A stretch of 64,000 nt of DNA from Nostoc sp. UHCC 0702 (GTDB lineage Bacteria; Cyanobacteriota; Cyanobacteriia; Cyanobacteriales; Nostocaceae): the NCBI GenBank assembly GCA_017164015.1, contig CP071065.1, positions 8,337,501 to 8,401,500 on the forward strand, written 5' to 3'. The position numbers and the translations under genes are program-made. The notes under the pieces are model-generated. The model did not search any database. It was given only the letters and a program-made list of their open reading frames with translations, and was not told the origin of the DNA. The first letter of the stretch is position 1. Each line of letters starts with the position of its first letter. Shown here in pieces: positions 50,798-55,219 of the stretch.

Positions 50798-53370
50798 CTA
50801 AGAGACTACTTCCCACAAACCGAAAGCTGGCCCGATAAAACGAATAGTCACCCAGGCTACAACCATAACGCCAATGCCTATCCAGGCACCGCGAGTAGTC
50901 CAAATGACAAATTGTTCGGCTTGGGTTTTAGTGATGGGAACCCAAGACAAAATCCGAGTCTCTTGACCGTATTCTTCTCCAAGTGTGGTTTTGGTTGAGT
51001 CGATGGGGAGTATTATCTCCCGCACCTCTCAGTTAGATCCGTGCGTGCAGCTTTCACTGCACACGGCTCCCGATGTTCTTAGCTTGCGCTTTTGCTCATG
51101 TGCTTGTAATCGTGGCAACTCTCGTGAATTGCTTCAAGATTATTTTTCTTCCAGTTGGCGTGATTTCCGTCGATGTGATGTAGGTGAACCCGTTCCTCAT
51201 CGATGAACTTTAAGCCGCAGGATGCACATTTATGGTTTTGCTTGTTAAGAGCATTAGAGGTTTCACCGTTGTAGAGCTTGCTATTACGTTCGCTCCAGTA
51301 GGTTGTATCTCCGTCATAGGGGGATTTTGTTCCTTTGACCATGACGTGTTTATTTTCGGAGTAGGGAACTGCTGGAAATGCTTTGTCTAGTATTTTCTTG
51401 CTAGAGTAGCGGTTTTGTTTGGTTTCCTTGTTAAATACCTTGTAAGCTCTTGTTTCGATGTGGCATAGGGAATTCCTGGAGCCGTCCATCTTGCAGAACT
51501 TATGGTAATTTCTCCAACCTCTAACTACCGAGGCTAATTTGTCAGCCTTTGTGGTAGCACCATAATTCGAGTTGTTGACGATGTGTTTTACTTTCTTACG
51601 GAACGCTTTGAAGTTATCCACTGAGGGGTTACATCTAAACTTTCCGTTTTTCTGGACTTTGAAGTGCCAGCCGAGAAAATCAAACCCATCTGTCGAAGCG
51701 GTAATTTTGGTTTTCTTTTGGCTTACATTCATTCCGCGTTTGCGGAGGAACTCGCTGATTGTTTCAAGTATCTCTGTCGCATCATCTTCGGGTCGAAGTA
51801 TAATAACCATGTCATCTGCGTATCGGACTGATGGCTCGGTGATATCACTGACTGAGGTTTTGTCAGTGATTCTCTGCCCTTGATTCTCATGGTATCTGTG
51901 TATACTCTCAATCCCGTTGAGCGCGATGTTTGCTAATAGTGGGCTGACCACTCCCCCTTGAGGTGTTCCCTGTTCGGGGAATTCTGGGTTGACTCCTGCC
52001 TTGAGACATCGGAATATTCCGAGTTTTAAGCTTTTAGGGGCAATGAGTTCGTCCATTATTGCTGAGTGATTAATCCTATCGAAGCACTTTTCAATATCGA
52101 GTTCAATTACTCGCTTATTTATTCCGTTAGCTTTGGAGTTAAGGTTTAGGAAGATGTATTTTTGTGCATCATGGGCGGAGCGCCCAGTTCTGAACCCATA
52201 ACTCCTGGCGTGGAAAGTGGCTTCGTGTGCTGGTTCAAGTGCATATTTTGCGAGGCATTGCCAAGCTCTATCCGCGATGGTGGGTATCTTAAGCATTCTG
52301 GTAGTCCCGTCCTTCTTAGGGATGGGGATTTCCCGTAGTCCTTGATGCTTCCAGTTTCCACTATTCATTTTCAGTAATTCTTCAAGGTTGAAGCGTTCTT
52401 CAAATGAGAGCGATTTTTTCCCATCAATACCAGCCGTCTTTTTCCCAGCATTTAGCTGAGATACTTGTCTTATTGCAAGAAATCGAGCCGAGGTTGATTT
52501 TAGAATAAGCTTTTGGAGAAACCGCGCTTTTCGCTTGTCTCCAACTTGAACAGCTTTAAATACGCGCTTTTGAAGGCGGAAAAGATTTCGGCGGAACTTC
52601 TTCCACGGTAAAGCTCTCCAAGATTCACTAGTATGTCTACTGTGTCTAATCATTTTCTCTTCTCTAGTTTGTATTCTCTGAACACCTCAGTCCAATTACG
52701 GACTGTCCTACCCTAACTGTGGGGATTCCTCCACTCGTCTGGTCTACCTGAGATTCGACTGTCTCAAGACCCACAATTAGTTTTTATTCGTTCCCTCGGA
52801 GAGATTGATGAGCCACTGCGTTGCGGAGGACAGTCGCGTGGGCGGGTTTCCCACGCCAGTCCGCACAACGGGGGGAACCCCCGCAAGCGGCTGGCTCGAC
52901 TTGAGCGAACTGTCCGTTGGGGTTCCCCCCGTTGTAGCATGTGGCGTTGTTCCGTTAGATGTAGCCAATTCGACTACTGGATTCCCTAGACTCTTGCCGT
53001 TACTCGCAGTATGTTCGGCGGAAATGAACTCCAGTGAGGTCAGGGATTTTGCGTTGCGCCCTGCCTGCAAATAAGTCGTTTTTCTAGGCTCTGTTTCATC
53101 ATAGGAACTCCCTGTTAGCGCCAGTGTCAACCCGCAACGGTCGTCTGATTGCGCCCTGTTCCCAGCTTCACTCTACAAGAACCGAGCTTGTTCGGTGTGG
53201 GCAGATAAGGAGTCAATTCTGAGTCTGAATGGCAAGACTTGCACTTGCATCTGACCGAGAGTTCAGTCCTTAATGACAGTAATCTGCTGTCGGACTGGTT
53301 TAGTTATGTACGGACTGATTACCGTGATTCACTAAACAACGAATCGCACACGACGCTTTGCTTCACCCAT
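50798..53370 (-). CDS. DUF2839-like small membrane protein, split by a group II intron
   Basis: Exon 1 is 53370-53350 (ATG, coding MGEAKRR) and exon 2 is 50998-50798 (STKTTLGEEYGQETRILSWV...). The intron between them starts GTGCG at 53349. Joining the exons gives 73 residues: the MGEAKRR start, the LGEEYGQETRI segment and one hydrophobic helix (GAWIGIGVMVVAWVTIRFIG), matching my memory of the cyanobacterial DUF2839 family (function unknown). The exon phases fit only if the intron ends in ...ATCGAC at 50999, an expected A-pyrimidine end. The open frame that runs into the intron from 51025 (MREIILPID...) is intron sequence, not the true start. Expression depends on splicing; the reconnected frame argues that splicing works or did recently. 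Confidence 0.75.
51036..51069 (-). ncRNA. Group II intron domain V
   Basis: 34-nt hairpin on the minus strand: GAGCCGTGTGCAGTGAAAGC followed by TGCACGCACGGATC. It has the GAGCCGU start, GAAA-type terminal loop region and two-nucleotide bulge position of domain V. Domain VI follows at about 51034-51000, with stem GGGAG / CTCCC. Confidence 0.88.
51079..52653 (-). CDS. Group II intron reverse transcriptase/maturase with HNH endonuclease
   Basis: A 524-residue intron-encoded protein. Residues about 60-340 form the reverse transcriptase, with GTPQGGVVSPLLANIALNGIE and the catalytic YADD at 278-281 (RYADDMVIIL). The maturase/X region follows (RGWRNYHKFCKMDGS). The C-terminus (about 465-524) is an HNH endonuclease with CASCG, HLHHIDGNHANW and a final CHDYKH. 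No stop or frameshift, so it may still mobilise the intron and assist splicing. Start at 52653: ATG before RHSRHTSESWRALPWKKF, which is the usual N-terminal beginning. Confidence 0.95.
   Translation of the reverse strand: MIRHSRHTSESWRALPWKKFRRNLFRLQKRVFKAVQVGDKRKARFLQKLILKSTSARFLAIRQVSQLNAGKKTAGIDGKKSLSFEERFNLEELLKMNSGNWKHQGLREIPIPKKDGTTRMLKIPTIADRAWQCLAKYALEPAHEATFHARSYGFRTGRSAHDAQKYIFLNLNSKANGINKRVIELDIEKCFDRINHSAIMDELIAPKSLKLGIFRCLKAGVNPEFPEQGTPQGGVVSPLLANIALNGIESIHRYHENQGQRITDKTSVSDITEPSVRYADDMVIILRPEDDATEILETISEFLRKRGMNVSQKKTKITASTDGFDFLGWHFKVQKNGKFRCNPSVDNFKAFRKKVKHIVNNSNYGATTKADKLASVVRGWRNYHKFCKMDGSRNSLCHIETRAYKVFNKETKQNRYSSKKILDKAFPAVPYSENKHVMVKGTKSPYDGDTTYWSERNSKLYNGETSNALNKQNHKCASCGLKFIDEERVHLHHIDGNHANWKKNNLEAIHESCHDYKHMSKSAS
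52797..52950. repeat. GC-rich repeat nested inside the group II intron
   Basis: Contains GAGCCACTGCGTTGCGGAGG, CCGCACAACGGGGGGAACCC and GGGGTTCCCCCCGTTGTAGC. The last phrase is almost identical to the one at 83-104 of the window. It lies in the 5' half of the intron, upstream of the protein gene. Confidence 0.75.
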
Positions 53371-53566
53371 AATCAGCGATTCAAAATTAAAGTATGTTTG
53401 TCAGTGAGTACTGTCAGTTATATGAACTACACCAAAGATGTAAGTCATCACATCAATAGTACACATTAAAAGTATGACAGCTTATGCTGCTGAGAATCTC
53501 TCAATAAGCTGATAATACCGCTTGCTCAGAGATGATTTTCCTTCAGTTGACAAAATGTAAATAGTT

Positions 53567-53641
53567 CACTGATGACTGATGACTGATGACTATTGACTGT
53601 TGACTGATGACTGTTGACTGTTGACTAATGACTGATGACTA
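53567..53641. repeat. STRR array, TGATGAC/TGTTGAC heptamers
   Basis: About ten heptamers (TGATGAC and TGTTGAC variants) ending GATGACTAG. The CTA of the last unit forms the TAG stop of the minus-strand helicase-like gene at 53639. The rest of the 53371-53638 gap, upstream of the split gene, holds no gene. Confidence 0.94.
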
Positions 53642-55219
53642 GGCAGAATTCTCCTCAGTTGGATGAGAAAATAGACTGGGGTCAAGATAGTTGATGCGTG
53701 CTAGAGGACTCAAAGCAGCAAGAATTTGAGCGCCGTAGCTACGGTTAACTACACGACTATCCAGCAAAGCAATGATACCTTGATTTTCTCCTCGCACTGG
53801 AGCGATCGCTCGCTGCAATTCATTTAAAGCAGCTGGCAATAAGTATAAACGGAACCAATCCTGATGCGATCGCTTGTAATGAGCTACTCTTCCACCTACA
53901 AGAGGATTTTCTAAAGATGGTAATGGCAAAGTGGCAATCACTAGCAGCTGGGGTGCAGGCAAGACTGCTTGATGTTCTCGCCAAAATTCCCAACCGCTGA
54001 TTAAAATACCATTTTCATCCAAACAAGTTTTTTCTACCTGCACCCGTGAACCAAATTCGGAAGCTAAAATTGCTCCTACTTGCGCTTTTAGCGGTACATC
54101 CCCCACCAAAATCACCGTCAATCCTCGTGCTGTGGCACTCAGACACAGTAATGTACGGACTTTGTGAATAAATGCTGCTTGAAATTCTGGCGTGTTGGGT
54201 AAAGGCAACTGATGAGGTAAATATAGTTGAATTGCTTCCGCCTGGCTATCAGAGGAAAACTTCAAGCAAGTCACATCATCCAACCCGAAGCGTTGACGGA
54301 ATAAAGGCGCCTCAGTTTCAGATTCTAAAGCACTACCAATTAACACTACTGGTTGTCGTTGCCAAATGGGCGAAAGTATTTTTGCTAATTCAATTGGCGC
54401 GTAATGTAAAGAAAATAAACCCTGACGACGGGCAATAGTCGCCCAAAAAAGAGCAGGGGGGGGAGGGGGGGATGAGGAAGATGAGGGAGAAAGATTTTCG
54501 TTAATTTCTTTAAATTGTTGCCGGAACTGTTGCCAAGGTTCTGGCAATGCTTTTACTGACTCTAAAGCAGAATACAGATGGTTTAAAATCTCTATTTCTG
54601 GTTGGGAAATTAAGTAGCACTCATACGGATTAACAGGATGCTGGAATAGTTCTTTTGTGAGTTGCACGCGTACAGAACGAATTACTTCAACTTGGTTGGG
54701 ACAAGCTAGCATGAGTTGATCCCAATCATGGGGTTGAATATCCTCAGTTAGCTGCTGACGCACCCAATCTTCGAGATCATCTACCCCATCAATAATAGTC
54801 GGAATATCTGGGGGAAAACGCTTGTCAGATACGAGTTGCCCTTTTAACCAAGCTGCGGGGGAGGTAAGTAGTAGCCCTTGGAACTCAGAACCAGGCCAAG
54901 CGTCACCTGTTCTGATGGATTTATCGGCTTGCAGCCATTGCTGTAGCCGGGGAATTTCCACTCGCAGCAGACGTTGCTGTACTTCTTCTGGGGCAACAAT
55001 AATTACAGGGCCATGCCACATCAGTGCTGATGCGACAAAACTAGTGCGATACCGCCCTTGATAACCACAAACTGCCCCAACTTGAATTAAGGCGCTACGT
55101 CCTAACCGCAAAGCCCGTGCTACCAACCTTGCCATCGTCAAATGATGGGGCCAGGAAGGAAAACCCGCCTGCGATCGCAGGAAGTTATGTAGTGACAAAT
55201 GGACTTCTGCCTCAATCAC
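53639..55219 (-). CDS. DinG/Rad3-like helicase homologue with degenerate ATPase motifs
   Basis: A 526-residue protein (GTG start) with the general layout of cyanobacterial DinG-related helicases: WPHHLTMARLVARALRLGRSALIQVG at the N-terminus, FVASALMWHGPVIIVAP for motif Ia, and a C-terminal helicase lobe with VLIGSALESE and GRVAHYKR. The expected P-loop (GxGKT/S) is replaced by VGAVCGYQGRYRTS (47-60), with no lysine in place, and the DEAH box position reads DGVDD (144-148). ATP hydrolysis is therefore doubtful, and it may be a structural or regulatory relative. Residues about 244-256 are a Ser/Pro-rich tract read from GGGGATGAGG-type simple repeat. Transcription ends in the STRR array, which provides its stop. 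Confidence 0.75.
   Translation of the reverse strand: MIEAEVHLSLHNFLRSQAGFPSWPHHLTMARLVARALRLGRSALIQVGAVCGYQGRYRTSFVASALMWHGPVIIVAPEEVQQRLLRVEIPRLQQWLQADKSIRTGDAWPGSEFQGLLLTSPAAWLKGQLVSDKRFPPDIPTIIDGVDDLEDWVRQQLTEDIQPHDWDQLMLACPNQVEVIRSVRVQLTKELFQHPVNPYECYLISQPEIEILNHLYSALESVKALPEPWQQFRQQFKEINENLSPSSSSSPPPPPALFWATIARRQGLFSLHYAPIELAKILSPIWQRQPVVLIGSALESETEAPLFRQRFGLDDVTCLKFSSDSQAEAIQLYLPHQLPLPNTPEFQAAFIHKVRTLLCLSATARGLTVILVGDVPLKAQVGAILASEFGSRVQVEKTCLDENGILISGWEFWREHQAVLPAPQLLVIATLPLPSLENPLVGGRVAHYKRSHQDWFRLYLLPAALNELQRAIAPVRGENQGIIALLDSRVVNRSYGAQILAALSPLARINYLDPSLFSHPTEENSA

Follow-up and report, generated by a model that had tools for sequence, protein, structure and literature searches.

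A putatively mobile group II intron at one recurrent base of the near-universal DUF2839 gene in Nostoc and its relatives

The window, a 64,000-nucleotide stretch spanning bases 8,337,501 to 8,401,500 of the 8.59-Mb single-contig genome of Nostoc sp. UHCC 0702, carries on its minus strand a DUF2839 gene divided by a group II intron. Exon 1 (53370..53350) reads ATGGGTGAAGCAAAGCGTCGT, which encodes MGEAKRR, and is followed by GTGCGATTCG at the start of the 2,357-nucleotide intron (53349..50993; GTGCG...GACTCAACC). Exon 2 (50992..50798) extends from AAAACCACA to the stop and comprises 64 codons plus the stop codon. A Helicase_C_2-like gene of 526 amino acids (55219..53639, minus strand) lies upstream; it adjoins DUF2839 in the carriers of the intron and served as our yardstick for host divergence. 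Short imperfect repeats (actgatgactgatgactattgactg...) fill positions 53565-53642 between the helicase-like gene and the DUF2839 leader. The original prediction of a minus-strand group II intron is borne out by an Rfam match, an intact intron-encoded protein (IEP), and exon-binding (EBS) motifs, and the closest relatives of the window intron come from Nostoc and its allies.

The intron edges were placed using blast, the conservation of 3′ flanks, and an empty site. The split after MGEAKRR, with a 5′ junction of CGT|GTGCG, agrees with the earlier reading: blast alignments of the intron 5′ end to copies at unrelated sites begin at GTGCG, the form in which the window copy carries the 5′ GUGYG motif of group II introns, and exon similarity ends exactly where these related introns begin. 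On these comparisons we consider the 5′ edge firm. The 3′ end lies at 50993/50992 (...GACTCAACC|AAAACC), and the junction given previously, CGAC|TCA, is 6 nucleotides too early. In the information profile of 83 distinct 3′ flanks, TC[A/T]A[C/A]C is conserved directly downstream of CGAC, and conservation collapses beyond it. TCAACC is assigned to the intron because this sequence or a near variant of it is kept after CGAC at 83 unrelated insertion sites and conservation is lost directly after it. The empty site of the congener G033 (TTTGAATCGCTGATT ATGGGTGAAGCAAAGCGTCGT|AAAACCACACTTGG), both flanks of which match the window, reads CGTCGT|AAAACC, and the intronless homologues listed (n = 29) are 70 to 71 residues long with MGEAKRR followed by K or Q. 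The last two intron bases are CC, and relatives have AC, CT, or TC at the same position; group II introns usually end in AY (PMC4424553). An end one base earlier (AAC|C) was rejected, as it leaves a C that is absent from empty sites and shifts the frame.

The exons rejoin in frame, as had been proposed, and exon 2 encodes the rest of DUF2839. The predicted spliced protein (MGEAKRRKTTLGEEYGQ...) has 71 amino acids, MGEAKRRKTTLGEEYGQETRILSWVPITKTQAEQFVIWTTRGAWIGIGVMVVAWVTIRFIGPAFGLWEVVS, whereas 73 residues had been expected; the Ser-Thr of "STKTTLGEEYGQ" is intron encoded. An intron ending at CGAC, with exon 2 beginning TCA ACC and a 73-residue product, is almost certainly wrong. That reading also keeps the frame, and the frame test of the original prediction was blind to the error because a 6-nucleotide shift amounts to two codons. 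The 73-residue version still matches DUF2839 (PF10999) at 114.5 bits, with a 2-residue insertion needed, but the 71-residue product fits better, aligning residues 1-67 on model positions 1-67 without insertion at 118.8 bits (cutoff, 22). In addition, TCAACC is missing from the empty site and from the 29 intronless homologues, and without it the basal stem of domain VI is lost. The predicted junction is CGT|AAA, so a test that expects a CGT-TCA junction looks for the wrong product.

The 3′ part of the intron matches Rfam RF00029 over the full length of the model (positions 1-77) at 57.5 bits (gathering score, 40), which places domains V and VI at 51071-50994 on the minus strand; the fold of this region has a z-score of -4.2. 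Domain VI is predicted to form a stem at about 51031-50996, and a UGAG/CUCA basal stem with an unpaired A eight bases from the intron end appears in the fold only if the intron reaches AACC. An unpaired GA sits on the 3′ side of this stem in the model, and its A, at 51000 as positioned from the fold, is a candidate branch point. The IEP (52653-51079, minus strand) is an intact open reading frame of 524 amino acids with RVT_N, RVT_1 (YADD), and GIIM maturase domains and a C-terminal HNH endonuclease domain, and its nearest solved maturase is the group II maturase of PDB 6me0 (E = 5.9e-66). By the layout of its EBS motifs the intron is IIB-like. Reverse transcriptase, maturase, and HNH domains, a shortened total length, and cyanobacterial hosts describe the CL2 class (PMC8919778), to which the window intron probably belongs given the same three domains, its 524-amino-acid protein, and its Cyanobacteriota host. 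It is, in these respects, an ordinary cyanobacterial kind of mobile intron.

Target recognition was examined by scanning intron positions against the last exon bases at 82 distinct sites. The scan picked intron positions 340-345 as EBS1, with a mean pairing of 88% compared with about 41% for shuffled exons, and also picked 278-283 as EBS2. With a flexible loop register, EBS1 was fully paired at 43 of 67 distinct sites (shuffle mean, 4; maximum, 12; 500 shuffles) and EBS2 at 39 of the 67 (shuffle mean, 11; maximum, 18), so that both motifs covary with their exon targets far above shuffles. In the window, IBS2 (GCAAA) and IBS1 (CGTCGT) lie in the last 12 bases of exon 1. EBS2 (53072..53067, minus strand; ATTTGC) pairs through TTTGC with GCAAA at 5 of 5 positions, and EBS1 (53010..53005, minus strand; ACTGCG) pairs with CGTCGT at 5 of 6, including one G-U pair, with one mismatch. 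The target bases fall within the codons for E-A-K-R-R, which are nearly invariant among homologues.

A search for the MGEAKRR codons followed by GTGYG identified an intron at exactly this base in 9 of 218 family genomes, representing four genera; the same pattern search found no carriers outside the family in a phylum-wide sample. In all eight carriers whose two junctions can be read, joining the exons on paper gives back a protein of 71 residues. The ninth, G070, has a contig that stops inside the intron and was missed by a strict 3′ pattern, which also missed G189, where the intron ends CAATC and the exons rejoin normally on paper. The possibility that the matches in G079 and G102 lie in another MGEAKRR gene was ruled out, as their exon 2 is that of DUF2839. 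Six copies (the window, G079, G102, G141, G189, and G544) form a first lineage, which is a single clade in the tree (SH-aLRT, 99). A second lineage (G547 and G554) is placed far from the first, and its intron is 73% identical to that of the first. The introns of G102 and G544 share a segment, the last ∼500 nucleotides of the IEP gene, that is only about 79% identical to other carriers; these two introns are mosaic, judging from their sequences, and recombination between copies occurs. The fine branching inside the first lineage is unreliable because of these mosaics.

Related introns were also noted away from the DUF2839 site. A second intron of the same broad family is present in the window genome (locus L021, 2210-4409; G000:C1:5327209-5329408), with 72 to 80% identity; its start falls close to the end of an open stretch of 203 codons, and it may interrupt another gene. 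G544 and G547, both Nostoc, have 26 to 27 IEP matches each, including several identical or near-identical ones at different sites, which point to recent bursts of spread. At loci L073 and L127, several intron 5′ ends occur within a few hundred bases of each other, an arrangement that suggests introns nested in, or adjoining, other introns. The IEP of G102, at the same DUF2839 site as the window copy, has YGDH in place of the catalytic YADD in an open frame, possibly a maturase kept for splicing after the loss of reverse transcription.

Our preferred interpretation, to which we assign a probability of roughly 0.88, is a mobile group II intron in DUF2839 that retrohomes to a near-invariant target and spreads horizontally, with two lineages at one base. 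The intron would have entered the single DUF2839 gene between its seventh and eighth codons. Excised intron RNA together with the reverse transcriptase/maturase/HNH protein would recognize GCAAA(G/A)CGTCGT through EBS2 and EBS1 and retrohome there; in the pre-mRNA, the maturase-assisted ribozyme would remove 53349-50993 and join CGT to AAA, restoring the normal 71-residue protein. For the window strain, we infer both splicing and the help of the protein, as well as the chemistry of retrohoming, whereas the boundaries, target pairing, recurrence, and signal of horizontal movement can be read in the sequences compared. A target that hardly varies within the family would favor horizontal passage between genomes followed by homing to the same base, and the second lineage would have colonized this base independently. 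Weighing against this interpretation are the CC at the intron end, the mismatch and the G-U pair in EBS1 of the window copy, and an insert in domain I.

A single entry into DUF2839 in the family ancestor, followed by vertical inheritance and many losses, would account for the finding that all carriers identified fall within one family and that first-lineage copies form one clade, but we consider it highly unlikely. Among hosts with about 80% identity in their flanking genes, first-lineage introns are 92 to 95% identical, far more alike than either those genes or synonymous sites. The window and G079 introns share 95.1% identity, compared with 80.3% for the DUF2839 exons and 80.5% for the upstream gene, and synonymous divergence (dS) is 0.14 for the IEP versus 0.66 for DUF2839. 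The clean empty site in the congener G033 also speaks against vertical inheritance, as do two divergent introns at the same base in Nostoc strains that are 94 to 98% identical at the locus: G189 and G547 have exons 97.7% identical and upstream genes 94.2% identical, while their introns are only 72.9% identical. Repeated horizontal arrival at the same base is the simplest reading of these comparisons.

Whether the window copy itself splices well has to be weighed against a 138-nucleotide hairpin-forming repeat (52947-52810, minus strand; intron 403-540) in the 3′ part of domain I. Elsewhere in the window genome, pieces related to this repeat are present at more than 20 places. The insert may weaken splicing, and the earlier argument that splicing must be efficient does not follow, since the repeat lies inside a conserved domain I segment. 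An intron that splices poorly or not at all, with DUF2839 silenced or made as a variant from the GTG at 51025, is nonetheless unlikely. In favor of such a failure, the insert interrupts a segment whose bases are nearly invariant in 71 copies and, among the carriers compared, is found in the window copy only. The GTG-initiated frame reported to start inside the intron at 51025 does exist (75 amino acids), and in the carriers read, the frame from this GTG is open through domain VI into exon 2. The dN/dS of 0.41 between the window genome and G033 is among the highest of the pairs compared, although it reflects very few changes. Against these points, the insert is predicted to fold on its own, and its site, close to the base of domain I, is a strip predicted to be unpaired; both the IEP and exon 2 are intact, and the GTG lies buried within the stem of domain VI. 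DUF2839 is also present in 192 of 193 family genomes, with a single match in the window genome. Among carriers, it evolves under purifying selection (dN/dS mostly 0.1 to 0.3). These observations of conservation, single copy, and selection support the inference that the DUF2839 intron splices efficiently. A literature search for a tested function of DUF2839 found none, although a survey mentions the domain. It is a far-fetched idea that the intron acts as a splicing switch, in which unspliced RNA would give a variant DUF2839 from the domain VI GTG and spliced RNA the normal protein, and that hosts tolerate or use it; if true, such a switch would help explain the repeated occupation of one base.

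The mobile, horizontally spreading intron that we favor resembles several described systems. Like TeI3/TeI4 of Thermosynechococcus elongatus, it belongs to multicopy cyanobacterial introns encoding a reverse transcriptase/maturase, with EBS motifs that diverge along with the target, as described for the T. elongatus introns (PMC2882425), whose solved relative is PDB 6me0; those copies are mostly outside genes, whereas the DUF2839 intron interrupts a conserved coding gene and recurs at a single base in several genera. A parallel in argument is Ll.LtrB and Ef.PcfG in relaxase genes, where introns are much more similar than exons between hosts at one conserved position, and where high intron and low exon identity at such a site was argued to reflect horizontal homing (PMC5072309). 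The relaxase genes, however, belong to conjugative elements, which transport the intron, while DUF2839 is a near-universal single gene beside a conserved neighbor, and the base is common to two intron lineages. In the cyanobacterium Trichodesmium erythraeum, a conserved protein gene likewise contains a group II intron, a twintron whose splicing was demonstrated (PMC4649490); that twintron interrupts another gene, and the DUF2839 intron differs in being single, with its own IEP and with splicing predicted from sequence. In bacterial class B introns, which have a 3′ extension called domain VII (PMC4424553), a quick reading likewise misplaces the 3′ edge, but the DUF2839 intron has no extra domain, and 8 bases separate its end from the bulged A of domain VI.

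Homing at DUF2839 is known behavior at a new address, and the less usual trait is that two distinct lineages occupy one base of a chromosomal gene that is nearly universal. For annotation, such an intron means that exon 1 of DUF2839 can be lost and that reading a 3′ edge by eye can give a wrong result that still keeps the frame. The locus is a clean natural example of a bacterial group II intron residing in a nearly universal gene of the chromosome. At the same base, some near relatives have no intron, some have the same one, and others have a different one, which makes the locus a good system for learning how introns persist where a failure of splicing would cost a conserved gene.
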